From NCBI RefSeq assembly GCF_900403705.1, contig NZ_OUNR01000001.1, forward strand, positions 992,001 to 1,056,000: DNA of 64,000 nucleotides, given 5' to 3'. Source of the DNA: Nitrospira lenta (GTDB lineage: Bacteria > Nitrospirota > Nitrospiria > Nitrospirales > Nitrospiraceae). The notes under the pieces are model-generated. The model saw only the letters and a list, made by a program, of their open reading frames with translations. It searched no databases and was not told where the DNA came from. Positions 6,879-46,870 of this stretch are shown piece by piece (the first letter of the stretch is position 1; each line of letters starts with the position of its first letter). The position numbers and the translations under genes are program-made.

Positions 6879-8159
6879 TCACAGTGGTGTGATATTATTT
6901 CCCGGTGGGTTCAAAGCAGGAAGCTCCAGCCCCTCTATCTCTTGAATCGTTTTTCCTGCAATCCCCTGCAAATCTCCGTACATCCCCGCTGTCGCTTGCA
7001 TGACCCGATCAATCTGCTCTTCTCGCTTCGCCCATTGCTTGATGATGGCCTTCTTCTCTTTATCGAGATCCTCCTGCATGGAGGAGAACGCCTCGACAAT
7101 TGCCTCGACCCGATGACGGAAGCGAGGTCCGGTCAGGTATTGATAGACCATTTCCGTTTTCGTCTGCTGCCCCTCGGACGCTTGACGGGCTGAGGCGACT
7201 TCGATGAGCGTGTGGCGGAGCGTGAGGGCGACAGGAAGTACCGTTTTGGTATGCGTGACCCAGACGTTCTCGACTAACCCGAATGTTTCTATTTCTTTGG
7301 GGAGCGATTGGCTCACGATCACGGCAATCTCTGCTTTGGCCGCCCGCTGGTCTTCGCGAAGCTTAGCCAGCCAGCCGTCGCTCCAGTTCTTGGTTCGCTT
7401 CGACTCCCAGATGATCGTCCCGCAAGGTTGTCCGTTCGGTCCGACAACATGCTGAAGGGCATCACCGCCATGCTCACCTTTGGGAACGGGCTCGATGGTA
7501 TCCCGTGGAAACTTTGCCCGTAAGAGAGCTTCTAGTTCTAATTCCTGAACTTCCCCTTGAAGCTGCTGCGAACCCTGCTCGGCCTTTCGCTTCAGCTCCT
7601 CGATCTGCTTCTGCATGGAAGAGATCGTTTGCTCCGCTTCCATAACCTTGAGCTTCAGCCCTTCCTCGGCTTCTTTCTTCGCCTGTTCTCGGGTGGTCGC
7701 GAGTCCCTCTTGGACCCGCTTTTCAACTGTCAGCTCCAATTCACGCTTGGCGTCGTCGAGCTCGCGTTGTTTGCGAAGAAGATCGGCTTGCGCTTTTTGC
7801 GCCTCGGTCAATTTGACGTTCTGCTGAATGATAACTTCTTGGAGATCGGCAAGAGCCTGCGTCTTTTGGTCAATATCTGTCTGAAGAACCAGCTTCGCTT
7901 TCTTCCCTTCTTCAACCGAAATCTTGCCTCGTTCCAGCTTGAGCTTTTCTGCCACCTGATCATCGATTGTCTGCTGTGCCCTGGAAAGTGCTTCCTCCCG
8001 CTCGCGCAAAGCAGCATCGCGTTTCGCAACATCGGCATCTTTCTGAGCCAGTTGCTTCTGGTATTCGCGGCGTGTGGATTCGATCAATGGAGCTGCGAGA
8101 GACTCCGTGAGTTTGATCTCGGTCTTACAGTTGGGACAGATGATGGTTGGTTCGCTCAT
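6879..8159 (-). CDS. DUF2130 protein, predicted PD-(D/E)XK-like nuclease with coiled coil
   Basis: Protein of 426 residues. An N-terminal zinc-knuckle-like CPNC near residue 9 precedes a long charged coiled coil (about 30-210). The DUF2130 core follows: GGDALQHV near 232, then IIWESKRTKNW with Glu-x-Lys near 251-254. The D...ExK arrangement is what the PD-(D/E)XK nuclease fold shows, so DNA cleavage is a reasonable inference, not a demonstration. It starts 14 bases after the helicase stop and ends 33 bases before the OLD nuclease, so the three are probably co-transcribed. A cysteine pair plus coiled coil suggests a DNA- or complex-binding arm. DUF2130 proteins have no firmly established role that I know of. 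Confidence 0.8.
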   Translation of the reverse strand: MSEPTIICPNCKTEIKLTESLAAPLIESTRREYQKQLAQKDADVAKRDAALREREEALSRAQQTIDDQVAEKLKLERGKISVEEGKKAKLVLQTDIDQKTQALADLQEVIIQQNVKLTEAQKAQADLLRKQRELDDAKRELELTVEKRVQEGLATTREQAKKEAEEGLKLKVMEAEQTISSMQKQIEELKRKAEQGSQQLQGEVQELELEALLRAKFPRDTIEPVPKGEHGGDALQHVVGPNGQPCGTIIWESKRTKNWSDGWLAKLREDQRAAKAEIAVIVSQSLPKEIETFGLVENVWVTHTKTVLPVALTLRHTLIEVASARQASEGQQTKTEMVYQYLTGPRFRHRVEAIVEAFSSMQEDLDKEKKAIIKQWAKREEQIDRVMQATAGMYGDLQGIAGKTIQEIEGLELPALNPPGNNITPL

Positions 8160-8173
8160 AGCCGTCCTCGTCC

Positions 8174-11041
8174 TTACCGTACCTGCCAGCGAACTGAAAA
8201 TAGTTGCTGGGAGCCTACCTTTTGTTGCAACTTGCCCTCAATTTCTGAGATGAGCTGTCCGCGACGACGATCGATCTCATCTTGGGCATCAAACAACGCC
8301 CTGCGGCGCTTGCCTCGTTCGGATTCGATCGCCTTGATCTGCTTTTGACCGGCGAGCTTCTCTTCCAGAGTGAGCGCTGCCACGGCGGCTTTCCTGGCTT
8401 CCTTGATCTGCCGATCGAACTCCTTGATCTCTCGCTCTAGCCCTACCTTCAAGTCATCGGCCCAGGCGTCCAGCTTGTCGGCTTCGATCTCGAAGAATTC
8501 GGCATTGCGCTGCGAGATGTGCCGCCGAATAGTGTCCTGACGTTCTTCCGTCCGCTTACTGAGCGTTGGAGGCTCAACCACGGAGCTCTCCGGCTGCGCG
8601 ACTGTGGCAGGCAGGGAGAACAGGCGCCGAACGGCTTCCTCGTCCAACACTTCGCCGCTGTCGGTCATCCCCGTTGAAATGAGATAGTCTTCAGCTTGAT
8701 CCAACGCTTCTACGGTGAACAAAGAGAGGGTCAGGACTCCGGACTTGCCAATAAGCGGCTCCACCACACTGACTTTGCCATCGTGTTTGCCATATTCGAA
8801 CGTCAGTTCTGCCGGATCGAGCTGGCGGTTCTTTGCCTGCTCCAGCACATGCTCTGCCAGTGGATGTGCCAAGCGATAGAGATGGGCTTCCCGGGTTCGA
8901 CGAGGCAGTTCATAGAGCCCAAGCGGGATCTCTCCTTTGAAAGGACAGGCATGAAGCCGGAACGAGGTGTCCGAAAGGAAGTCGGCATGATCGCGCAGCT
9001 CAAAGCGCGTGAGTTGCATCAGGATGCGCTCATATCGATTCAAATACAGCCGTGAGCTCTCGTCGCTCACGCGCAGTTTTTCTCGCACCTCATCATCAAA
9101 GTGTTCAAATAGCAGCTGGCGGGCACGAGTCATAGCCTCGTCGATCTGGGTGCCAAGCTCACTTTGCAATTGGTCGAAGGAGGTCTTGATCTCCTGTGGG
9201 GTACGGCACCGTTGATAGATGTCGTTAATCCGCTTTTCGAAATCCACGCCGGACTCAATTGCGCCCAGCACTTCGTCGCTGGCCCCAAAGACGCCTTCAA
9301 ACAACAGGAATTTCTCAGAGAGTAGCCGAAAGACGTGCTGATCGGCTTCGTTGTTCTGATTGAGGAAGTTCACCACGACGACATCGTGCTTTTGCCCGTA
9401 CCGGTGGCAGCGGCCGATGCGCTGCTCGATCCGCTGGGGATTCCAGGGGAGATCATAGTTCACGACGAGCGAGCAGAATTGGAGATTAATTCCTTCTGAT
9501 CCTGCTTCTGTGGCGATCATGATCTGGCCCTGCTCCTTGAAGTAATCCACGATCGCAGAGCGCAGGTCGGCTGAACGTGACCCGGTAATTCGATCTGTCC
9601 CTTGATGGCGCTGAAGCCAATCTTGGTAGATTTCCTTTGAGCGGGGGTCGTTGTTCGAGCCGTTAAAGAGAACGATGTGGTCTTTCCAGGGGCTATCGGC
9701 CAGGACTCGGAGGAGATATTCCTGGGTACGACGTGATTCAGTAAAGATGATGGCCTTTTGTGCCGCACCTAATTGTTCTGCTTTGCCAAAGGCCGTGCGC
9801 AGGGCGGTGAGGAGCGCTTGCCCCTTTGCATTATGAGTAATCGACACCGCCAGCTTGCGGAAGCTTTCGAGGTCGTCAATTTCCTGTTGGATGGCTTTGC
9901 GGTCCGCCTCAGTGAGCACTTTCGAGGCGGCTTCTTCCTCGTCCCACTCCTCCGCCAGCTCATCGAGTGTCTCAAAGTCCTCCTCCAGGGCTTCCTCAAG
10001 CGGGTTTGGCCCATCGGCGAGTCGAAGACGTTCACGGAGACGCGAGCTCATTGAGTCCAGCGCTCCGGCGATTGCAAACGAAGACGAGGCCAACAACTTG
10101 CGGAGGACGAGCGTCATCAGGGATCGCTGGCTTGATGGGAGCGCTTGCAGGTTGTCGCGACGGAGATAGTCGGACACTAAATGATAGAGCCGATCTTCAT
10201 TTTCAGCCGGCGTAAAGGGCTGCATCATCGGTAAGCGCTTGGTGTAGCGCACATACGGCAAGACTTGGCGGCGAAGCGTGCGCTTGCAGAGCGGCTGCAG
10301 ACGGGCTTTCAGGGTTTCGAACGTGGCTTGGTTGTGCAGGTTCGCAAACTGCTCTTTGAAGCTCTTGAGGTCGCCGAAGATGCGGTCATCCACCACACTG
10401 ACCAGCCCATACAGTTCGAGCAACGAATTCTGCAGTGGCGTAGCAGTAAGGAGCAGCTTCGGTGCGTCCTTGAGGGCGTGCTTGATGGTGTTGGCAATGA
10501 CATTCGTCGGCTTATACACGTTCCGTAAGCGGTGGGCTTCGTCGATCACCACGAGGTCCCAGCGTATGAGGCTGATCTCCGCAGCCTTGGTACGGGCAAA
10601 CTGGTAGGAGCAGATGATGATGTCGTCGCACTCGAACGGCCGGACATGACCTTGGCGGACCGTATCGTTGTAGGGCTTCGTCTCAAGAATGGAACAGGGC
10701 AGAAAGAACTTCTCCAGAAGTTCCTGATGCCACTGCTTGCGGAGGTTGGACGGAGTAATGACCAGGATGCGCCGTTTTCGCTCCGCCCACTTCTGTGACA
10801 GCACGAGACCAGCTTCGATAGTCTTACCCAGACCAACTTCGTCTGCGAGAAGGGCGCCTTTCGAGAGAGGCGATCGGAAGGCAAATAGCGCAGCTTCGAT
10901 CTGATGGGGATTGAGATCGACTTGTGCATCTACGAGCGCGCTTGCGAGCTTTTCGATGCTATCGGATGGACAACGTTTCGTGAGTTCGTGGGCGAAATAC
11001 TTGGCGTGGTAGGGAGTAAGGTCCGTCAATTCAGAACCCAT
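8174..11041 (-). CDS. SNF2/RapA-type superfamily 2 helicase-translocase
   Basis: Protein of 955 residues. Motif I is ADEVGLGKT near residue 70, motif II is DEAH near 166 and motif III is LLTATPLQNS. The C-terminal RecA lobe carries TEAGSEGINLQFCS and QRIGRCHRYGQKHDV, the Swi2/Snf2 motif VI. A long charged helical C-terminus follows. ATP-driven translocation on double-stranded DNA is the family activity. Large SNF2 proteins of this kind occur next to type III-like methyltransferases and in DISARM, but no DISARM drmA, drmB or drmC gene is seen here. A fossil of its last 30 codons is fused to a methyltransferase start at 4714-4967, supporting a former helicase-Mod linkage. The gene is 14 bases upstream of the DUF2130 gene. 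Confidence 0.88.
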   Translation of the reverse strand: MGSELTDLTPYHAKYFAHELTKRCPSDSIEKLASALVDAQVDLNPHQIEAALFAFRSPLSKGALLADEVGLGKTIEAGLVLSQKWAERKRRILVITPSNLRKQWHQELLEKFFLPCSILETKPYNDTVRQGHVRPFECDDIIICSYQFARTKAAEISLIRWDLVVIDEAHRLRNVYKPTNVIANTIKHALKDAPKLLLTATPLQNSLLELYGLVSVVDDRIFGDLKSFKEQFANLHNQATFETLKARLQPLCKRTLRRQVLPYVRYTKRLPMMQPFTPAENEDRLYHLVSDYLRRDNLQALPSSQRSLMTLVLRKLLASSSFAIAGALDSMSSRLRERLRLADGPNPLEEALEEDFETLDELAEEWDEEEAASKVLTEADRKAIQQEIDDLESFRKLAVSITHNAKGQALLTALRTAFGKAEQLGAAQKAIIFTESRRTQEYLLRVLADSPWKDHIVLFNGSNNDPRSKEIYQDWLQRHQGTDRITGSRSADLRSAIVDYFKEQGQIMIATEAGSEGINLQFCSLVVNYDLPWNPQRIEQRIGRCHRYGQKHDVVVVNFLNQNNEADQHVFRLLSEKFLLFEGVFGASDEVLGAIESGVDFEKRINDIYQRCRTPQEIKTSFDQLQSELGTQIDEAMTRARQLLFEHFDDEVREKLRVSDESSRLYLNRYERILMQLTRFELRDHADFLSDTSFRLHACPFKGEIPLGLYELPRRTREAHLYRLAHPLAEHVLEQAKNRQLDPAELTFEYGKHDGKVSVVEPLIGKSGVLTLSLFTVEALDQAEDYLISTGMTDSGEVLDEEAVRRLFSLPATVAQPESSVVEPPTLSKRTEERQDTIRRHISQRNAEFFEIEADKLDAWADDLKVGLEREIKEFDRQIKEARKAAVAALTLEEKLAGQKQIKAIESERGKRRRALFDAQDEIDRRRGQLISEIEGKLQQKVGSQQLFSVRWQVR

Positions 11042-11232
11042 TGTTAAGGAATGCCTATTAGCCGCCGCAGAATACCCCTTTCCCCGTGAGAAATCACCAC
11101 AGCTTAGGAGGTAAGGAATTCAAAGTTGGCGCAATTAGAGAATTATTCGGCGTCAGTGGATCAAGCCGATCTGCATGCTGATGGGCCCATATAAGCCATT
11201 GATCTGCCTGGTTTCCTTGCTGAACCGCCCCA

Positions 11233-11358
11233 TCAGTTCAAATGCGTCAGTTCTGATAGTTTGATGAATCGATACGCACGGCTTGGCTGTATATTCTGGA
11301 TATCGGTCAGGCGTCCCTCGCTTAGAAACTTCACTTCCAAGACATGATCTCTCTCCAT
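11233..11358 (-). CDS. Possible 41-residue protein overlapping the zincin-like gene
   Basis: A short frame begins at an ATG at 11358, inside the last codons of the upstream gene, and ends at TGA at 11233. It encodes MERDHVLEVKFLSEGR, then a basic, hydrophobic stretch ending KLSELTHLN. Its 28-base overlap with the preceding gene is the kind of coupling seen in real operons, and the composition is protein-like. I do not recognise it, and it could be the remnant of a longer gene. The remaining 11042-11232 shows nothing I can identify. Confidence 0.35.
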   Translation of the reverse strand: MERDHVLEVKFLSEGRLTDIQNIQPSRAYRFIKLSELTHLN

Positions 11359-12041
11359 GCTTCTACTTTTCCAGCAAGCTCCTCCTTTTTAATTAACTGA
11401 ATGGTTCCTCGTAATCGCTCAAGCGGTACTTCTAAATACGGTTCAACTCGATACTCACGCGGCTGTCGTCGCATCAGGTTATTGAAGATATCAAGCATTC
11501 GGCCAGCGGCTTTGCATACAATACGATCTTCTGAATCTTCAGAGAGCTTCTTGAGAACTTGGTAAGTGACCAACTGAGCGAGGTGTTCGTGAAGGAAGGG
11601 GTCAATCTGGTTGTATATTGTGGTCAGGCGTTTCAGCCGCGATGCAGCAAATCTTCCGTTTTTAAGACCTTCCCATCTGTCCGCTTCAGTCACACCGAGA
11701 TGAATAAGCGCATGTGCGTGTTCGTGGTAACGGACTACATACTCAAGATCTTCTTCTTCGCAGTCCAGTAGTCGGGCAGCCCTTTGGATGTTCTCTGAAA
11801 ATAGCTTGATCGACCGGTTGGCTGAATTATATGTGCCTAAGAAGATGTCTATTGTAAATAATTCGTCGGCTTCTGAGAGTATCGGCGGTGACGGAGGATC
11901 ATCAGCCGAGGGCCCCATTATGTCTTTGAGATAACATGGGTAACCCATCACATCTCTAATGATAACGTCTGGAGTCAGCTTATTGTGGAGCTGCTTTAAG
12001 ATATCGAGTCCTTCGATAAATTCAGTCGCGTCAAGTTTCAT
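11331..12041 (-). CDS. Hypothetical protein with HExxH motif, possible zincin metalloprotease
   Basis: Protein of 236 residues that I do not recognise by family. It contains YHEHAHALIHLG near residues 106-117, which satisfies HExxH. A downstream Glu in HEHLAQLV (near 150) could be the third metal ligand, so a gluzincin-like peptidase is possible. No signal peptide or membrane segment is seen. It is transcribed toward the helicase and lies at the upstream edge of the defence island, with no other gene between it and the divergent ParB-like module. A regulatory protease role in defence would be inference only; the HExxH could be fortuitous. Confidence 0.7.
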   Translation of the reverse strand: MKLDATEFIEGLDILKQLHNKLTPDVIIRDVMGYPCYLKDIMGPSADDPPSPPILSEADELFTIDIFLGTYNSANRSIKLFSENIQRAARLLDCEEEDLEYVVRYHEHAHALIHLGVTEADRWEGLKNGRFAASRLKRLTTIYNQIDPFLHEHLAQLVTYQVLKKLSEDSEDRIVCKAAGRMLDIFNNLMRRQPREYRVEPYLEVPLERLRGTIQLIKKEELAGKVEAWREIMSWK

Positions 12042-12199: not shown

Positions 12200-12229
12200 T
12201 TGACATAATCAATATTCAGCCATTATAAT
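12200..12229 (+). promoter_or_regulatory. Consensus sigma-70 promoter ahead of the ParB-recombinase module
   Basis: TTGACA at 12200-12205 and TATAAT at 12224-12229 are both perfect consensus hexamers, separated by 18 bases in an AT-rich stretch. The promoter points toward the ParB-like gene, whose start codon is about 460 bases further on, so the transcript would carry a long untranslated leader. The match is read directly; activity is inferred. Confidence 0.65.
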
Positions 12230-12252
12230 TGGACTCGACGGTGAGTGTTTAT

Positions 12253-12381
12253 CAAGAGGCAACTAGCCTCTAGCTTCACCACCTCTTGAAGCCCAGCCTA
12301 TCGGGGCTTCACCTCCTTCAGCTTTAGCCACACCGTACGCGGGTGGCTGAACGTGAAGGTGGCGCCTAACACGCCATTCAC
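12253..12381 (+). other. Hairpin-rich leader, candidate structured RNA or recombination site
   Basis: Four successive stem-loops are visible. GAGGC/GCCTC is at 12256-12270, GAAGCCC/GGGCTTC at 12288-12310, GCCAC-CCG/CGG-GTGGC at 12327-12347, and GTGAA..TGGCG/CGCCATTCAC at 12353-12381 with a two-base bulge. CAAGAGG (12253) can alternatively pair with CCTCTTG (12282), excluding the first stem. The block lies just after a consensus promoter and upstream of the ParB-like gene. It could be a regulatory leader, a small RNA, or a folded recombinase substrate; the strand used is not certain. The remainder, 12382-12695, shows no gene I can support. Confidence 0.5.
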
Positions 12382-12695
12382 GCTGAGCGCGGATCCTCGT
12401 GCTCGGAAACGTGGTGGTGTGTCGTGAAAACCTTTCCAACATCCTTCGCACTGTCCCTGCCGGTTTTCCCGTACTTTCTGCTCGTCTTATCGATTTGCCG
12501 TGTTGTGCAACCTCTTGCCCTTCAGAGCTATGAGGTTCGCCATAACCAAGGCCGAGCATTGGTCGGCGAAGAGCTGCTCGTTGGCTTCATGTGCAAGGAC
12601 CTCCGCTTGTTTTCTATGCCCCACCCGGGAAAGGCTCAGCACTCAATTTATTTCACCAAAGTCAACCGGCATCGCAAAAAGGAAAGGGAAAATCT

Positions 12696-13541
12696 ATGAA
12701 GCCACAAATGAAAATGATTCCTCTTGCCTCGCTCAAAATTCACCCCAGCAACCTGCTGACGGATCTGGACATGAAGATGATCGAACAACTGACAGAAAGC
12801 ATGCGACGAGAGGGCTTTCGTCTGAACCATCCTCTCTTAGTCACACGTGATTACTCCATTCTTGACGGGAAACACCGGTATTTCGCTGCGGTAAAGGCTG
12901 GGATTAAGGACGTTCCCATTGTGATTGATGAAGCAACCACCGATGTCGAGGCAATGACCGCCACCACTATCGACAACACGTTCGTCAACACTCTCACTCG
13001 GAAACTGCCCAAGGGCATGCGTGTCATTCATACGGTCCGGAAGAATCTCTTAGAAGAGAAACCGATAAAAGAGCCCTGGAGCCTGGCCGGGGTCAATAAA
13101 TCTGATTGGTTTGCTGCCAAACGCGTCATCGATGCAGAGATACAGAAGGCGAGCCAAACCCGAAAGGGCCTCCCGATCGAACTCCTTGATGACATGATCC
13201 GCGGCCGGGAGATCTCCGAGCAGGTTTTCGATTTGTACCACGATGAGAAGGCATGGAACAGGATTGTCAAAAGAACGGCTGCTGCATCGACTACACCGAA
13301 AGGCAACCCTAAACCAACGGAAATCAGCGATGCGATTAATGCCTTAACTCATTATGTGAAGGTGTCATCAGAACAAGACGATAGTTTGCCGGAATCACTG
13401 CAAACTAGTGTTCAATCAGGCCTGGCCAAGATCAAGAAGCTCAGTCGCCCGGATACCGCCCGGCAGGCATTGGTTCTCGCCTGCGAGGTGACGTTGTCCT
13501 TACTGGCCAACAACAAAGATTTCAGCGATCGGCTTTTTTAA
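12696..13541 (+). CDS. ParB/Srx-like nuclease-fold protein, first gene of the recombinase module
   Basis: Protein of 281 residues. The N-terminal ParB-like domain shows IPLASLKIHPSN, a partner-helix region and ILDGKHRYFAAVKAG near residues 55-70, equivalent to the ParB box with its conserved Arg. The rest is helical and unlike plasmid ParB, and no ParA is nearby. The start at 12696 is chosen because GGAAAGGG lies 7 bases upstream; longer frames upstream lack such a site. ParB-fold proteins bind CTP or DNA, or act as nucleases. Here it probably binds DNA for the mobile module. The next gene begins 20 bases downstream on the same strand. Confidence 0.75.
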   Translation: MKPQMKMIPLASLKIHPSNLLTDLDMKMIEQLTESMRREGFRLNHPLLVTRDYSILDGKHRYFAAVKAGIKDVPIVIDEATTDVEAMTATTIDNTFVNTLTRKLPKGMRVIHTVRKNLLEEKPIKEPWSLAGVNKSDWFAAKRVIDAEIQKASQTRKGLPIELLDDMIRGREISEQVFDLYHDEKAWNRIVKRTAAASTTPKGNPKPTEISDAINALTHYVKVSSEQDDSLPESLQTSVQSGLAKIKKLSRPDTARQALVLACEVTLSLLANNKDFSDRLF

Positions 13542-13561
13542 CGGTCTTGAATGGGCACGAT

Positions 13562-14338
13562 ATGAAGTTCTTTTCTATAAAACCTGGATCAACTCCAATA
13601 ATAGTGGGCAAGGATTGCTTCACCCTGCCCGCGGATCAACTGGCTCGTATCCGTGAAAGACTGCGTGCTTTCCACATGCTTTTGATTCGCTTGCCTCTCA
13701 TTGCACGAGAGAGCCCAGGAAAAGAGCCGCTCGAACTTCTGAGCAATCATGTGTCCTTTTCTTTCATGCACGATTACCCGGAGACAGATGTGCCGTTAAT
13801 CGTGCTGACAGAAGAAGATCTATCCGGAGATCAAGCGGGGAAACTCTCCCAATTGGATCGGACAATCGCAAAAGCGTTATGTCAGATGATTTCAACAGCC
13901 AATCAGGCATCGCGTCCCATCGTTATGAGGGACAAGCGAGTGGATGCAAAGCAAACATGCCCTTTGTGTTACCCGGAGAACAAGTACGCTGTGCTCAGAG
14001 TACCCAAAAATTATGCTTCGCTTCTGGCAGAGAAACGAGGCGGATATGTTTCATGTAAAGAGTGTGGAATCCGTGTTTTGTTATCCGCGGAAGAACTCGC
14101 ATCCTTTAAATTGCGCACGCTTCAGACCAAGGAGTTTGTTCGAGCAGGATACGGATCAGATGGCAAGTTGGAAAACTGTCCTAAGTGTCTGGCAACCGGT
14201 ATAAGCCGTGGTCTTATCCTACTAAGAATTGCCAAGGGTCAAGTAGTCGCGAGAATGTGCCGAAACTGGATGACAGTTCAGCAAGAGTGTGAATTTAACC
14301 AGGTGCGTCAAGGTGACACATGGGTGACTACGTTCTAA
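13562..14338 (+). CDS. Zinc-ribbon-containing hypothetical protein of the recombinase module
   Basis: Protein of 258 residues from the ATG at 13562; a TTG at 13547 is an alternative start. I do not recognise the family. It has two Cys pairs, CPLC near residue 133 and CKEC near 161, spaced like a zinc ribbon. A further CPKC near 199 and a Cys at about 226 suggest a second ribbon, so nucleic-acid binding is likely. The first 120 residues are mixed alpha/beta with no clear motif. Its end overlaps the next gene by 19 bases, indicating translational coupling with the large recombinase-like protein. Confidence 0.65.
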   Translation: MKFFSIKPGSTPIIVGKDCFTLPADQLARIRERLRAFHMLLIRLPLIARESPGKEPLELLSNHVSFSFMHDYPETDVPLIVLTEEDLSGDQAGKLSQLDRTIAKALCQMISTANQASRPIVMRDKRVDAKQTCPLCYPENKYAVLRVPKNYASLLAEKRGGYVSCKECGIRVLLSAEELASFKLRTLQTKEFVRAGYGSDGKLENCPKCLATGISRGLILLRIAKGQVVARMCRNWMTVQQECEFNQVRQGDTWVTTF

Positions 14339-16902
14339 GCCCTGATGTTATCCGGTTTCTTGGCAGGGCGGCTACGCCGGCAACTGCAATCCTTCACTAC
14401 GAGGATTGCCTGCCTCTCCGTATCATTCTTTCCCACTTACCACAGCACATTACCGGTTGCTCATTGGACGATGTAATTCAATGGACTAATGCATTCTTCT
14501 CGATTCTGGATGCCCCAGAGGATCTGCGCGGCATCCTGCACGCTGAACCAGTGTTGCATTACTGGACTCCTCTCCTCATCAAGGAGGAGGAGACATCTCT
14601 CAAGGATATGGTCCTAGCTATCCTAAGCAAGGTATTTAAGGGTCTACGGCAGTATGCCGAGATCGAATTAGACAAGGGGGTGTTCGATTGGCGCCCTCAC
14701 ATGGAGAGCGCACCTTTGTTTGCCTTTCACGTGGGTGCCTTCCACGCGACCGGCAAAAATGCAACGCCTTGCCAATTGTATGAAATGTGGGGCAGAAAGC
14801 TTCACGAAGGGCTTCGCGAGGTTCAGAAAACTACGTCAGAAATTGAGACGCTACGTAGGTATACAACAAGCGCGCGGCTGTTCTTCGTCCACTTTCCCCA
14901 TGGTCAGATTCGGATTGAACCTTCTTCGCTAATCACACCAGACTATTTTGAAGAACACCTTGAACACTTCCGTAACGGTTATATCGCTGCTCCTCACAGG
15001 AGAGGACTGATACGGGCTCTGCCGTTGATAGCGAATGACCATTGTCAACGTCTATGGCGACTTTTCTATAAACTGAAGGTGAGCCATAGACGGTATCCTG
15101 ATGTTACACCATCGTCAGAGGAGACATCGACCCTCATCGACGATTCACCCACATCGACGCTGGCATCACAAAATTTAGGAGCTGAGATACTCCCAATTAG
15201 AACAGTAGCTATATCGAGTCCACTGGACGCCGATGTGACGCCGAGTGCTGATGCCGCAGATGGTAGGAAGGAAGATCCTGACGAGACGGTCATCGAATTG
15301 ATATCTTCCACTGAAGAACATCCGCTTCTCCGTCGGCCTCCTCACCTCCCACACAATTATGTGTCCCGCTACATTCTGCACCAATATGAATTCTGGTGGG
15401 ACTCCAAATGCCTAAGCCTTGAGGCGATTGTGGATCTCTACAAGACGGTTGAAGAATTGCGAGCATTGGACATTTCCAAATTTGGGGCGCCAATTCTCGC
15501 TTTGCTTACACCACTGTTCTCCGGTCGTGATGCTCGTGACCTTGAGGAAGCCCTGATCGCCCATTACCCCACAAGCTCTGAGACAGAAGCTGGCCTTTCA
15601 CATGCAAATCTCTTTCTTGACATAGATAAGGCATGGTTCTTTTTCCATCAGAGTAAGCTACGTTCTTCTTTTCAGCAGCCGGAAGCAAGCGGATGGCTTG
15701 CATCCACAGCATGGGTTCCATTTCCTATCCCGAAACCTCTGCTGAACCTATGGAGAGCCTATTTGCGCTGGCACAATGATGTTGGTCATAGTAACCCTGG
15801 ATCTCACGTTCTCCAATATGTTGATAAAACCGGCCAGATAAGACCACTCAAGGGCGAGGAAGTTCCAGACCTGCTCAAGGAAGCCGGGCTAGATGCATCT
15901 CGGATTCCGAGATTGTTCGACATTTCACGGGGATTTCGCGGATGGCTTGTTCATGCTTTTGGTTTGAACGATGTGTCTGCCAATTTTATTAGCGGACAGC
16001 TAACAAGGGTGGGACCGAAACCTCGCTATACCCATCTAGTCATTAGCCACTTCCATGTCGAGTACCAACAGTGTTGCAAGGGGCTGCACGATCTTGTGCG
16101 CTCTTTTCTTCCTTCATCTGGATGGTGGAGCGATTGTGTTGACGTGGCCGATCACCGCCCGGATTTAGGCGGGATATATGGAGTTGGCTCTCCACTGGTA
16201 TTAGGAGAGTCCCTACTGGGGGATGAGATTCAATCCATTGGCAATGAGATTATAAGGACCTCATCGCCTCAGAGACCAGAGGAGATCGTCGCGCATCACA
16301 ATGCATATGTAACTTACGCCGCGCTCGCGTTAGGCATTCTGGGAGTCCGTCCGCGGAATGATTTAGGTCTATCATGTGCCGCCTTTGTCGCTGATGTCGA
16401 CTACATTCCCATCGTCGACAAACTGAGCGCACTGTACATAGAAGACCGATTGCTCGGCCTTCCTCCTACCGTTAAGCATATTCTTCATCAGCTGGCTACT
16501 GGAAGAATGCGCCTCATGCGGATTTTGGAGATGTACTTTGGACGACCTGCGGCTAAGGCGACGTCGAGTGACGCATTGTTAGTAAGCTTGTGTGATAACG
16601 GGACTTTGACCGCTCTCAATTTGTCTCGGCAGAGAGACCATCTCGCATCTTTTGGTTCAGACCACTTGGGGCAGGCCCCTCTGAATGTGGGAAGGCACTA
16701 CAACAGAAGTGCCAAAGTTCCCGTTTGTGCTGAGGACATTATCGATTGCCATATCGGCCATCAACGCGCCGGACGAGAACCATTCTGCTCTTTCGGAAGT
16801 GCTTTTATCGGACAGGCGCTAAATCTCTTGACAGATCAGCACGAAGAGATGGTTGCTCGTCTGCGCTTCAAGAGACTCCTGTATCTTCCAAACACGAAAT
16901 GA
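14320..16902 (+). CDS. Large divergent protein with degenerate tyrosine-recombinase-like C-terminus
   Basis: Protein of 860 residues with no family I can name. Near residue 670 it has ALALGILGVRPRNDLG, resembling the first catalytic Arg box of tyrosine recombinases (GLRxxEL). Near 800 it has GRHYNRS and CHIGHQ, resembling HxxR and LGH. Where the nucleophilic Tyr would fall there is EPFCSFGSAF, without Tyr. A separate stretch near 545-585 (RGFRGW to PRYTHLVIS) also looks recombinase-like. It may be a catalytically altered partner of the true integrase that follows, as accessory recombinases are in multi-recombinase elements. A low-complexity acidic linker spans about 265-330. It overlaps the preceding gene by 19 bases and the next by 4 (ATGA). 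Confidence 0.7.
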   Translation: MGDYVLSPDVIRFLGRAATPATAILHYEDCLPLRIILSHLPQHITGCSLDDVIQWTNAFFSILDAPEDLRGILHAEPVLHYWTPLLIKEEETSLKDMVLAILSKVFKGLRQYAEIELDKGVFDWRPHMESAPLFAFHVGAFHATGKNATPCQLYEMWGRKLHEGLREVQKTTSEIETLRRYTTSARLFFVHFPHGQIRIEPSSLITPDYFEEHLEHFRNGYIAAPHRRGLIRALPLIANDHCQRLWRLFYKLKVSHRRYPDVTPSSEETSTLIDDSPTSTLASQNLGAEILPIRTVAISSPLDADVTPSADAADGRKEDPDETVIELISSTEEHPLLRRPPHLPHNYVSRYILHQYEFWWDSKCLSLEAIVDLYKTVEELRALDISKFGAPILALLTPLFSGRDARDLEEALIAHYPTSSETEAGLSHANLFLDIDKAWFFFHQSKLRSSFQQPEASGWLASTAWVPFPIPKPLLNLWRAYLRWHNDVGHSNPGSHVLQYVDKTGQIRPLKGEEVPDLLKEAGLDASRIPRLFDISRGFRGWLVHAFGLNDVSANFISGQLTRVGPKPRYTHLVISHFHVEYQQCCKGLHDLVRSFLPSSGWWSDCVDVADHRPDLGGIYGVGSPLVLGESLLGDEIQSIGNEIIRTSSPQRPEEIVAHHNAYVTYAALALGILGVRPRNDLGLSCAAFVADVDYIPIVDKLSALYIEDRLLGLPPTVKHILHQLATGRMRLMRILEMYFGRPAAKATSSDALLVSLCDNGTLTALNLSRQRDHLASFGSDHLGQAPLNVGRHYNRSAKVPVCAEDIIDCHIGHQRAGREPFCSFGSAFIGQALNLLTDQHEEMVARLRFKRLLYLPNTK

Positions 16903-19169
16903 ATCCCCGAAATCTTGACCAGCTCGACAGCATAATTGAGGTCTATGCCAGACAACTGGATTGTCAGGGCAAACGTTCACTCGGAACTGTTCGAAGTGTC
17001 TGGTCTTGTCTAAGGGAGAAGCTGGAACAATGCGTGATTGATCGCGCGGGCCGATATATCCTTTCAGATGAACAGCTGACGGATCTCGTCAAGGCATTCG
17101 ATCAGCGGTATTCCTCAAGAGCACATCAATGGCTGGCAAAGCACACCCTTAATCTCATTTTATTCAAGCTCGAGAAGGAGGAGGTGATCGAGACAAAATA
17201 TGTGAAGGTGCCGCATCAAGTGCCTCGTACCTTGGTCGCAACTCTCGATGGAATCACACCAACCATGCTGGCTGGTGCCCGCCATATACGCCGTTTTCTT
17301 AAAAACAACCGGACGCTTGAACCTCCCGGCGACTGGCGTTGGGGGATAGAAGTATGGAAATGCCTGTTGTTTTATACATCGGTCGTTCTCGACAGTTTTA
17401 TACTATTGCCCAGTCTCACCCAGCGGTTGTTTAGTCTTCAGCGGGAAGATCTAAAAGAACGTGATTGGATCCTACTGCCTCAGCGTGGCCGACGCGAGGA
17501 GGTCGATCAAGGCCTCCGCACTCTAATACGATTCTCCCTCACTCCCTCTACGACGCAACACCTGAAGAATCTTCTACGGGTAGTAAAGCTCCCGAAAACA
17601 AGAGAGAGAAACACTCGCAGACGACTTTTCCCCGACGACTGGCGTACGAGGAAGTGGCGCAATCGCATTCTGCGACCGGCGTGGGAGGAGTTCATGACTC
17701 AGCTGATGAGAAATACACCATTTCAGGCTGCTGAGATTTCAATGGATTCACTGGTTCATGTGGGAACCGTGCTGGCGTTGACAGAGAATCTTCCTCCATT
17801 CGCCGTCGCGGTGCACACCGCCCAAACACTGGTCTCACCCATGACCGAGGCGAGTTTCAACCGTCTATTCCTCCTCAAGGACTGGCAGGGCATAGAAAAT
17901 CCAAGGTCGCAACGGCCGCGGGTAAACCCCCGGCAACTAGCCTCCTCATACGGCTCGGATGGGGAACTGTTTCAGCAAATCGAGTTGGCACGCCAGGGGC
18001 TTCATCGAGAGGAGCCAGACGCGAGGAACATCCGAAGAGAAATGGCCTGTCACATCGGTCAGCTGGTTGGGGTGACCGAGAGGGAACTGGCCACCCGCCC
18101 GGGAGATTTCACTTCGCTGGGATACAATACTCGATGTTACGGTCTTTGGTTGATACATCTGCTGATGGGAAAAGATGACAATGGGACTGTTTCAACGCGT
18201 GCTTCCGCCATAGCCGCAGGGTTCTTCCCGTATTGTGCGGAGATGCCTTTTCATAGCTGGGACAAGGCAGACTGGGTATCCAATGTGGCCGGGGCCATGG
18301 AGGAGCATGCGACATCGCATGCTAAAGCCAGTTTCTGTAGGTTGGATGATTTCCTCGTAGAGGTGGGATTGGCGCCAAAGCTGGACATCCCATGGCAGGC
18401 GAAAGCCCTTACCAAACCGCTGGCTCAACAACCCGTGCCACTCGTAGGTCCAGAGGAGTTTGATGCAGCTCTGTCAGCAACCTGCTCAAGTGTCATACCT
18501 GTCGAAATACGGCGACTACTCAGGGTTAAGATGATCCTGGGTTTCTCTCTCGGACTCCGCTCCATGGAAGCAACGAATATGAAGCTGAAGCAATTTGTAG
18601 TGTATCCGGAGCCCGTGATTGAAATCAGAGTCACTAAGACAGCTGCCGGGATTCGGAACCTTCATCTATCCAAACTCATGCCCGTTCATCACTTGAAGGA
18701 AGTTCGAGAGTTTTATGAGCACCGCCTCCGCGAAACATGCGGCAATTTGGAAGCCCCCCTTCTTGCCACGCCGACACATCCTGAGCCTTATGACAGCAGT
18801 TATTTAGCCTCGCTTGCAGGGCTAGTACTTCGGGAAGTCATCGCTGAACCGTTCTGTTTCCATCACTTGAGGCATTCATTTGCCAGCTGGTTCCTCTTGC
18901 GTTGGCTCAAGGCTGTCAAACCATGTGTATTTGATGGGGTGAAGATTCCCCTATTTGAACATAAGATATTTCACGAACCCCTACTGAGCGGCCTCCGACA
19001 ACTTTTGTTCGGCTTACGGGAACCAAAGATCGGGGAAGTTGCCTTCTCTCATGGGTTGGTCGCTCTATGCCGGCTGCTGGGGCATAGCAGCCCAGCAACT
19101 ACCCTTTCCTCATACTGCCATACGGTCGACGTCCTCTCTAGTCTGATTTTAAGGAAAGGGATTATCTAG
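16899..19169 (+). CDS. Tyrosine recombinase (phage-type integrase), large form
   Basis: Protein of 756 residues. The start ATG at 16899 overlaps the upstream stop as ATGA; a longer frame from 16746 would lie inside that gene. The C-terminal catalytic domain is complete: Arg in LGLRSMEA near 553, a Lys region around RVTKTAAG near 582, HHLRHSFASW near 654, LGHSSPATT near 728 and the nucleophile Tyr in SSYCHT near 738. An insertion of about 40 residues, including FDGVKIPLFEHKIF, separates HxxR from LGH. The unusually long N-terminal 500 residues probably carry DNA-binding and partner-contact domains. It is the last gene of the four-gene module and the likely strand-exchange enzyme that moves the island. 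Confidence 0.88.
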   Translation: MNPRNLDQLDSIIEVYARQLDCQGKRSLGTVRSVWSCLREKLEQCVIDRAGRYILSDEQLTDLVKAFDQRYSSRAHQWLAKHTLNLILFKLEKEEVIETKYVKVPHQVPRTLVATLDGITPTMLAGARHIRRFLKNNRTLEPPGDWRWGIEVWKCLLFYTSVVLDSFILLPSLTQRLFSLQREDLKERDWILLPQRGRREEVDQGLRTLIRFSLTPSTTQHLKNLLRVVKLPKTRERNTRRRLFPDDWRTRKWRNRILRPAWEEFMTQLMRNTPFQAAEISMDSLVHVGTVLALTENLPPFAVAVHTAQTLVSPMTEASFNRLFLLKDWQGIENPRSQRPRVNPRQLASSYGSDGELFQQIELARQGLHREEPDARNIRREMACHIGQLVGVTERELATRPGDFTSLGYNTRCYGLWLIHLLMGKDDNGTVSTRASAIAAGFFPYCAEMPFHSWDKADWVSNVAGAMEEHATSHAKASFCRLDDFLVEVGLAPKLDIPWQAKALTKPLAQQPVPLVGPEEFDAALSATCSSVIPVEIRRLLRVKMILGFSLGLRSMEATNMKLKQFVVYPEPVIEIRVTKTAAGIRNLHLSKLMPVHHLKEVREFYEHRLRETCGNLEAPLLATPTHPEPYDSSYLASLAGLVLREVIAEPFCFHHLRHSFASWFLLRWLKAVKPCVFDGVKIPLFEHKIFHEPLLSGLRQLLFGLREPKIGEVAFSHGLVALCRLLGHSSPATTLSSYCHTVDVLSSLILRKGII

Positions 19170-19276
19170 TCATACTGCATACGAATTCCGGCCTGCAACC
19201 GCGCACGTAGTTTCGCCTGTATTTGTGTGTAAAGCATTACTTCAGAATTTTCACGGTCGCGTATGACCATTCACGA

Positions 19277-19480
19277 CTGTCGCTATCCGGCCACTTTGCG
19301 ACAGTCGCTAAGGCAATCTCCGCGCCGGAAAGCTGCCGTTCATGAGAGATTGTGCTGGCTTAGCGGTAAGCCAGCCTGGATTGGATATGAGTCTGCTGGG
19401 GGAGGGTCGTAGAACAGTTACCTAACACAGGTGTCGGTGTCCACAAAACCTGCCCACATGTCTTCCCGCAAGTTCTCGAA
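19277..19480. repeat. Dispersed repeat, copy A (non-coding)
   Basis: About 200 bases resemble 46676-46870 in the same orientation. Shared blocks include CGACAGTCGCTA, CGCCGGAAAGC, GCCGTTCAT, GGGTCGTAGAACA, GTCCACAAAA and the end TTCTCGAA. An internal inverted pair (GACTGTCGCTA near 19276 against GCGACAGTC at 19299-19307) could form a hairpin. The gap between the integrase and merR (19170-19650) holds no gene I can see; this repeat is its only recognisable content. Confidence 0.7.
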
Positions 19481-19650
19481 CTCATGTGACCAAGAACTCG
19501 ACTTCCACCGTCCAGAAATCAGATAATTGATGGACTGATCCTGAACCTCGGTACATGCGGGTTAGGAGGTTCCTCCGATCTACACTCCGACATCCTAGGC
19601 CCACAAGGAGCCACGACTTAGGATAGTGAGCTCGCGGATGAAGAGGACGC

Positions 19651-46173: not shown

Positions 46174-46675
46174 CAGGACGGGGGCTTCCCCTATTGCGGC
46201 CTCGATGTCGCTCCTTTCGTTGTCGTGACCTGCCCGGGCAAATTGGGTCCAGGGTGAATGTTAGACTGGACCAGTGAGATGCGAGCTCTTTTTAGGCTAA
46301 GCGAAATCATCCGTTGTATTCCGCCAGAGGACAACTGAGCTTGCCTATGAATTGACCAGATTTTTTCGGGAGTATCTACTCGCGACGTGAATTTCGACTG
46401 AACCTCAGGCCCGCAGGGGCCCACCGTCTTGCAGAAGCAGAACGGCCTTGGCCGCTGATCGTTCGACAACGGGCGACACGTGAGGAATGTCATTCCGGCC
46501 GGATAGGGCCCACGCACTGCAACAACGCATAATGGGCGCCGCCCGTCATCGACGGCTTCCTGGGCACTGTCGCCCACGGCAAACGCTACTGAAAATGTGA
46601 AAACGGATCGTTGGAACTGACGCGTTTCTTGAAGGCCGGTAGTCGGTCGTTGGCAGCATATGTGCCGCCGGGTGA

Positions 46676-46870
46676 GTGTCTCAGTTCGGCCACTTGGCGA
46701 CAGTCGCTACGGCACTCGCCACGCCGGAAAGCGGCCGTTCATCAGAGATGGTGCGTGCGTCGCGCTACGCTTGGCTGAAGTGGATCTGAGTCGGCTGGGG
46801 AAGGGTCGTAGAACACCTGCTTATCGGCGTCCACAAAATCTACAAAAATGTCTTCCTGTAAATTCTCGAA
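46676..46870. repeat. Dispersed repeat, copy B (non-coding)
   Basis: Same orientation and general order of blocks as 19277-19480: CGGCCACTTGGCGACAGTCGC, CGCCGGAAAGC, GCCGTTCAT, GGGTCGTAGAACA, GTCCACAAAA, ending TTCTCGAA. The hairpin repeat at 46883 follows directly, whereas copy A lacks it. The surrounding gap 46174-47228 contains no gene I can support; a 128-codon minus-strand frame there lacks protein character. Confidence 0.7.

Follow-up and report, generated by a model that had tools for sequence, protein, structure and literature searches.

A recombinase operon of Nitrospira lenta that looks like an undescribed kind of DNA-moving machine

An operon located next to defence genes raises the question of what a large protein with a damaged tyrosine-recombinase active site does directly ahead of an integrase gene, and whether these genes together drive an integrative element. 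The question was addressed in a window of 64,000 nucleotides (the whole stretch of DNA that was analysed) and in relatives of its genes.

Results

Organization of the operon

Four coupled genes, designated A, B, C and D, constitute an operon on the plus strand (12696-19169), of which the host genome contains one copy. The features are as follows.

12200..12229, plus strand: candidate sigma-70 promoter upstream of the operon (TTGACA-18-TATAAT, 12/12 consensus matches, 18-bp spacer)
12696..13541, plus strand: gene A, accessory, ParB-like protein of 281 aa (ParB_N PF02195, E 7e-8)
13547..14338, plus strand: gene B, protein of 263 aa with a ParB-like N-terminal part and two zinc ribbons (homologues in place; PF13408)
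14320..16902, plus strand: gene C, 860-aa pseudo-tyrosine-recombinase (family in 18/395 phylum genomes; recombinase-like domain in the last ~280 residues)
16057..16899, plus strand: degenerate catalytic domain of C, as judged from alignments (R677, K701, R710, N789-x-x-R792-H793, G813-H814, F825 at the Tyr position)
16899..19169, plus strand: gene D, 756-aa tyrosine recombinase with an intact active site (invariant residues; XerA profile match; PF00589 at E 1e-4, which is below the curated cut-off for this member alone)

A and B are separated by 5 bp, and the subsequent genes overlap by 19 bp (B/C) and 4 bp (C/D, ATGA), respectively. Gene B starts with TTG, and an ATG is located a few codons further in. 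In an earlier note on this DNA, four genes coupled by short gaps or overlaps had been placed behind one promoter; the coordinates were as described there, and the predicted sigma-70 consensus agreed with a promoter ahead of the genes. Rfam returned two cobalamin riboswitches and nothing else. C and B have no database name, and Pfam, NCBIfam, PADLOC and PHROGs gave none for the C of the window alone.

Active sites of D and C

D is, as predicted from its sequence, a complete tyrosine recombinase. The residues R554, K580, H655xxR658, H659, G728H729 and Y739 were identified, so that the RKHRHY set is present within a Phage_integrase domain. The D family profile matched XerA (E 4e-9), and K, R, RH (in HxLRH), GH and Tyr are invariant in the family.

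For C, the alignment of the catalytic domain from 18 proteins was compared with PDB sequences, and a XerA-like protein (4a8e, E 2.9e-7) was matched together with XerD and other Int proteins; with a strict set (n=13, remote members left out), 4a8e was still matched at E 1.9e-5. Phage_integrase (PF00589) matched 8/18 C members, with the best at 8.8e-9. Profile comparison of full-length C with D was negative, and the direct comparison of the C and D domains gave a weak match (10%). The single-sequence structure prediction of the catalytic domain of C had a pLDDT of 33.

Arg-I, Lys, the Arg before an IPL-like strand, Arg-II and the His of GH are invariant columns of the C family. The position of the catalytic His (three residues before Arg-II) is occupied by Asn in 18 of the 20 members counted (NxxRH; Asn789 in the window), for which the motifs of the window, L069 and L079 were taken from the family alignment. 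In the Tyr column (H+11) of the same 20 members, Tyr was found in five and Phe in five, including F825 of the window, and the rest have H, S, A, I, T or L. By sequence profile, C thus has the catalytic-domain fold of tyrosine recombinases and lacks the catalytic His-II and Tyr; it appears to be a diverged tyrosine recombinase without the cutting residue.

The full set of tyrosine-recombinase residues ascribed to the integrase in the earlier note was recovered in D. The motifs ascribed there to C stood in part: the Arg box (R677) and the LGH-like motif (G813 H814) are kept, as is K701, and the Tyr is missing. The HxxR motif was out of register, since the invariant Arg-II is R792, the 'HYNR' at 793-796 is not the catalytic HxxR (R796 is variable), and the family alignment has Asn in place of the His. 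The suggestion of a catalytically altered subunit is supported by the degenerate domain that the profile search of C detected.

One C-family member (L066:874-1743) still carries the catalytic His (HAGRH) and Tyr and is possibly an intermediate between D-like and C-like proteins. In L016 (G139), C is interrupted by about 1.25 kb (contig 2169678 to 2170928), probably an insertion sequence, which is absent from G378, where the relative is intact.

Distribution of relatives and coupling of C with D

When a single C or D sequence was used as the query against genome and viral contig sets, no relatives were obtained. Relatives were found by whole-genome search, in which C was detected in 8/295 phylum genomes with the single sequence and in 18/395 with the alignment. 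The module is sporadic (1/77 genus genomes). The closest relative is in G094 of the same family (C 54%, D 66% identical), and the others are near 20-28%.

At 14/14 phylum loci with enough contig, D follows C directly in the same orientation, and the two genes overlap or are separated by a few bases. Across 12 loci the C and D distances co-vary (Mantel r 0.94, reached in 0/5000 permutations; 0.89 without L011). Outside the phylum, the pair was found in Vibrio cyclitrophicus (C 743, D 995) and Aeromonas caviae (C 790, D 1120), and Sphingobium has a D with a partial C. The D search also matched tyrosine recombinases in Acinetobacter plasmids, more than 190 of which carry C directly before D. A single Acinetobacter protein of 1683 aa contains both: the C profile matched its N-terminal half (88%, E 3e-6) and the D profile its C-terminal half (98%), which makes it a C-D fusion. 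Such natural fusions occur in two Acinetobacter plasmids (L018:4704-9752 and L019:4470-9872; about 1680 and 1800 aa, respectively); within the L019 protein, one stretch is repeated. In a second Acinetobacter type the genes are separate and encode proteins of 154, 786 (C) and 1066 aa (D); the D of this type was matched in 213 plasmid records at a coverage of at least 80%.

Helper genes A and B and adjacent cargo

B homologues were found at the equivalent place in L011-L015, L017, L072, L073 and L077. Four B members matched the recombinase zinc ribbon PF13408 of serine recombinases (best 1e-5), and the ParB resemblance of the N-terminal part was judged by eye. A ParB-like protein without zinc ribbons stands ahead of C in L016/L074 and L078, and in L076 a lone true ParB replaces B. 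A separate ParB gene A was found only in G094 (L011, 81% identical) and is absent before B in most relatives; it sits in a cargo block of 89-95% identity, outside the diverged module. Because C is usually preceded by a B homologue and otherwise by one of these ParB or ParB-like genes, what stays constant is a helper (ParB-fold or zinc-ribbon) followed by C and then D, and gene A is an addition shared with G094.

6879..12041, minus strand: adjacent cargo, comprising a DUF2130 protein, a DISARM DrmD-like SNF2 helicase and a 236-aa protein (93-96% identical in L011)

The upstream cargo varies and is usually defence. The window and G094 have the DISARM-like helicase with DUF2130, whereas L012 has SIR2, PifA and OLD-like proteins; in G139 the module adjoins an SNF2 helicase, and in L017 a MADS-like protein is encoded nearby. 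The neighbouring defence island that had been reported for this DNA agrees with the DISARM-like helicase and DUF2130 genes, which adjoin the module. A survey of neighbourhoods, which had been proposed for the four-gene set, showed that the set recurs with different neighbours; its conserved core was narrower, consisting of B-C-D, with A present only sometimes. Neither result that the note had named as a refutation was encountered.

Ends of the window copy

19264..19267, no strand: probable right end of the module, 98 bp past the D stop (homology to G094 stops at 19267)
19268..19570, no strand: probable target, right half, made up of a repeat found in extragenic DNA of the host genus (in 23/79 genus genomes, usually with the same start base)

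The counterpart in G094 of the repeat-matching sequence beyond 19267 is uninterrupted on its left. The repeat family, which has a sharp left edge at CGGCCACTTTGCGACAGTCGC, is represented in the window by this copy (19288-19570) and by a second at 46674-46870; up to eight copies occur in G327 among the matches listed. A 390-bp segment just ahead of that second copy (46274-46662) is also present after D in G094.

No terminal inverted or direct repeats of the window module were found above shuffled controls, and a 9-bp repeat, CCATTCACG, at 12374 and at the right junction was not significant. Position 254 was considered as the left end and rejected, because a methyltransferase gene spans it. For the window copy, neither an empty site nor a circular form nor a target duplication was found.

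A larger region is common to the host genome (G000) and G094 at 94-97%, with host flanks at 70-73%. At its left end, next to fmt, is a large serine recombinase (L045:3480-5192, about window -16520 to -14808); a CD-NTase (SMODS) gene and genes of type III restriction come after it. Since the shared region starts with its own large serine recombinase, its horizontal arrival is no proof that D moved it. B-C-D is far more diverged from G094 (42-66% protein identity) than its neighbours are, with a sharp break after gene A; in an island that is similar elsewhere, the C-D modules of G000 and G094 are at 55-69%. Such divergence with a sharp break is the pattern that module exchange would leave, and we infer that the window copy is mobile.

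The Acinetobacter unit

In Acinetobacter plasmids the unit is a discrete block of 6338 bp (6.34 kb) with sharp ends. At the left edge, AATAACAGAAAACTAAAAA, the match of 57/60 listed plasmid records begins at that base, give or take 3, with none ahead of it, and the right edge, GACARTTACCCATTTTT, is equally sharp. On its left the unit borders, among others, a transporter gene, a type I restriction operon, a Fic region, an insertion sequence or a further D-like gene; the right flanks are of at least two kinds, a umuC locus or a different gene. An artificial empty-site query made from joined flanks found no intact empty site in Acinetobacter plasmids. Of the two precise ends and the empty site by which an integrative element is judged, the right end was mapped in the window, both edges were mapped in Acinetobacter, and no empty site was found. 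The unit may move alone or may mark one end of larger elements.

At L110:18-1121, a second gene of the D family (24% identical) is cut by the left edge of the unit, an arrangement in which units are inserted next to or into each other.

Comparison with known systems

GInt elements (ginABCD) consist of three integrase genes and the small HLH protein GinD; GinC is without catalytic residues, and all four genes are essential (Bardaji 2017, PMC5385486). Like GInt, the present set is a multi-gene tyrosine-recombinase operon at one island end, with variable cargo and one recombinase without catalytic residues. Unlike GInt, by the gene content described for it, the set has one intact recombinase, the 860-aa pseudo-recombinase and a ParB/zinc-ribbon protein. 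It was not assigned to GInt: only C and D are recombinase-like, and B is a zinc-ribbon protein.

Strand-biased circularizing integrative elements (SE) encode IntA, Tfp, IntB and Srap, of which Tfp has the tyrosine-recombinase fold without the RHRY motif, and a copy-out model was proposed for them (PMC10214605). An operon with a recombinase-fold protein that lacks the catalytic motif and translational coupling are shared features, whereas the intA-tfp-intB-srap gene content is absent here. SE membership was rejected on the differing gene content, and the putative Tfp of an SE-like operon had no profile similarity to C (P 0.1%). The gene set accordingly resembles GInt and SE in pairing intact and degenerate recombinases but belongs to neither. 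The SE-type operon used as comparator (L071:7389-12864) adjoins tmexC on a Pseudomonas aeruginosa plasmid.

The gamma-mobile-trio (GMT), said to have appeared in Nat Microbiol in 2024, reportedly places the recombinase trio GmtX, GmtY and GmtZ beside defence cargo. Recombinase genes beside defence cargo are thus common to both, as far as GMT is known here by citation and by NCBIfam model (441 positions for GmtY). No GMT model matched the window genes, and none exceeded its cut-off in the relatives tested.

Tn554 and RIT elements have two or three intact, adjacent, overlapping recombinases, and relatives of Tn554 include abnormally long ones (PMC3414803, PMC2864759). Adjacent and overlapping recombinase genes are likewise present here. 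The second recombinase, without Tyr and His-II, is at odds with Tn554 (TnpA and TnpB both intact, and TnpC), and one intact recombinase was found against the three adjacent ones of RIT. The opinion in the earlier note that the gene content differs from Tn554, RIT and the gamma-mobile-trio held for all three. BIM elements comprise the bimA recombinase and a putative repressor, bimB, and are so far confined to beta-proteobacteria (PMC3414803, PMC2864759); no Cupriavidus plasmid match to D was obtained at E 1e-3. No published description of the gene set was found in a search mostly of literature outside subscription journals, and the set looks like an undescribed kind of DNA-moving machine.

Discussion

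The reading preferred here, to which a probability of about 0.68 is given, is that B-C-D (with A as an accessory) is a two-subunit recombinase operon driving an integrative element, with C as the structural and D as the catalytic subunit. D would cut the DNA, and C would be its paralogous and obligate partner subunit, contacting both att DNA and D within the synaptic complex but unable to cleave. The two would take alternate positions in the synaptic tetramer, where C would hold the DNA and D would cut it, and B may be a DNA-binding helper that sets target or direction. The complex would join the end just after D to the target, with the cargo, often defence, on the B side and exchanged. Since half of the subunits would have neither nucleophile nor catalytic His, one strand pair may be exchanged, and by analogy with SE elements the junction would be left to replication. 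A broader proposal is offered tentatively, and we would sooner doubt than assert it: that the elements, from the phylum of the window to Proteobacteria, are a separate class of tyrosine-recombinase element with an obligate heteromer of an intact D and a larger, nucleophile-less C with NxxRH, in which one strand pair is exchanged per synapse, replication finishes the process, and the ParB-like zinc-ribbon protein picks target or direction.

The operon might instead be a fixed regulatory or defence component, with DNA ends or invading DNA as the substrates of C and D, in an island that is moved by the fmt-side serine recombinase. The defence genes next to it, that recombinase at the left end of the shared region, and the identity of the region between G000 and G094 (94-97%, against 70-73% for host flanks) agree with such a component. 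It is nevertheless thought unlikely, as the Acinetobacter unit has sharp ends, different flanks and no common defence partner, and the C-D module is at 55-69% between G000 and G094 within a similar island.

Two other roles for C itself have been weighed. It is improbable that C is a working subunit with another nucleophile, e.g. the conserved Ser beside the lost Tyr, such that C and D both cleave: although nearly all members retain Arg-I, Lys, Arg-II and GH, most have a Ser directly after the Tyr position and 5/20 still have the Tyr itself, the His of HxxR is Asn in 18/20, the Tyr position is otherwise F, H, S, A, I, T or L, and we know of no tyrosine-recombinase fold with a serine nucleophile. 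Marginally less probable again is a recombination directionality factor or transcription regulator derived from a recombinase, which would be required for excision alone or for controlling D. Elements of this kind usually have helper proteins, and the degenerate active site and translational coupling would suit one; C, however, is the larger of the two proteins here, and two plasmids have the whole of C fused to D. Its size and these fusions favour a structural subunit over a separately timed factor.

Several mobile islands carry a recombinase-like protein without catalytic residues (GinC, Tfp). In the present case such a protein makes up one half of a system of two proteins; it is defined by a His-to-Asn change, is strictly coupled to its partner, co-evolves with it and is in places naturally fused to it, which makes its role directly testable. 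The unit lies beside defence cargo and in more than 190 Acinetobacter plasmids, where it is annotated only as an integrase and a hypothetical protein, and it may help to explain the exchange of defence and other cargo between plasmids.

With regard to the defence genes themselves, the DrmD-like SNF2 helicase lies beside the DUF2130 protein in the window (6879-11041) with no other DISARM genes seen, and the pair may be a defence system of its own. Just downstream of the module, two distant genomes carry a gene for a type IV DinG-like helicase (L012:15292-17181 and L017:13528-15450), which is a possible common target or partner.
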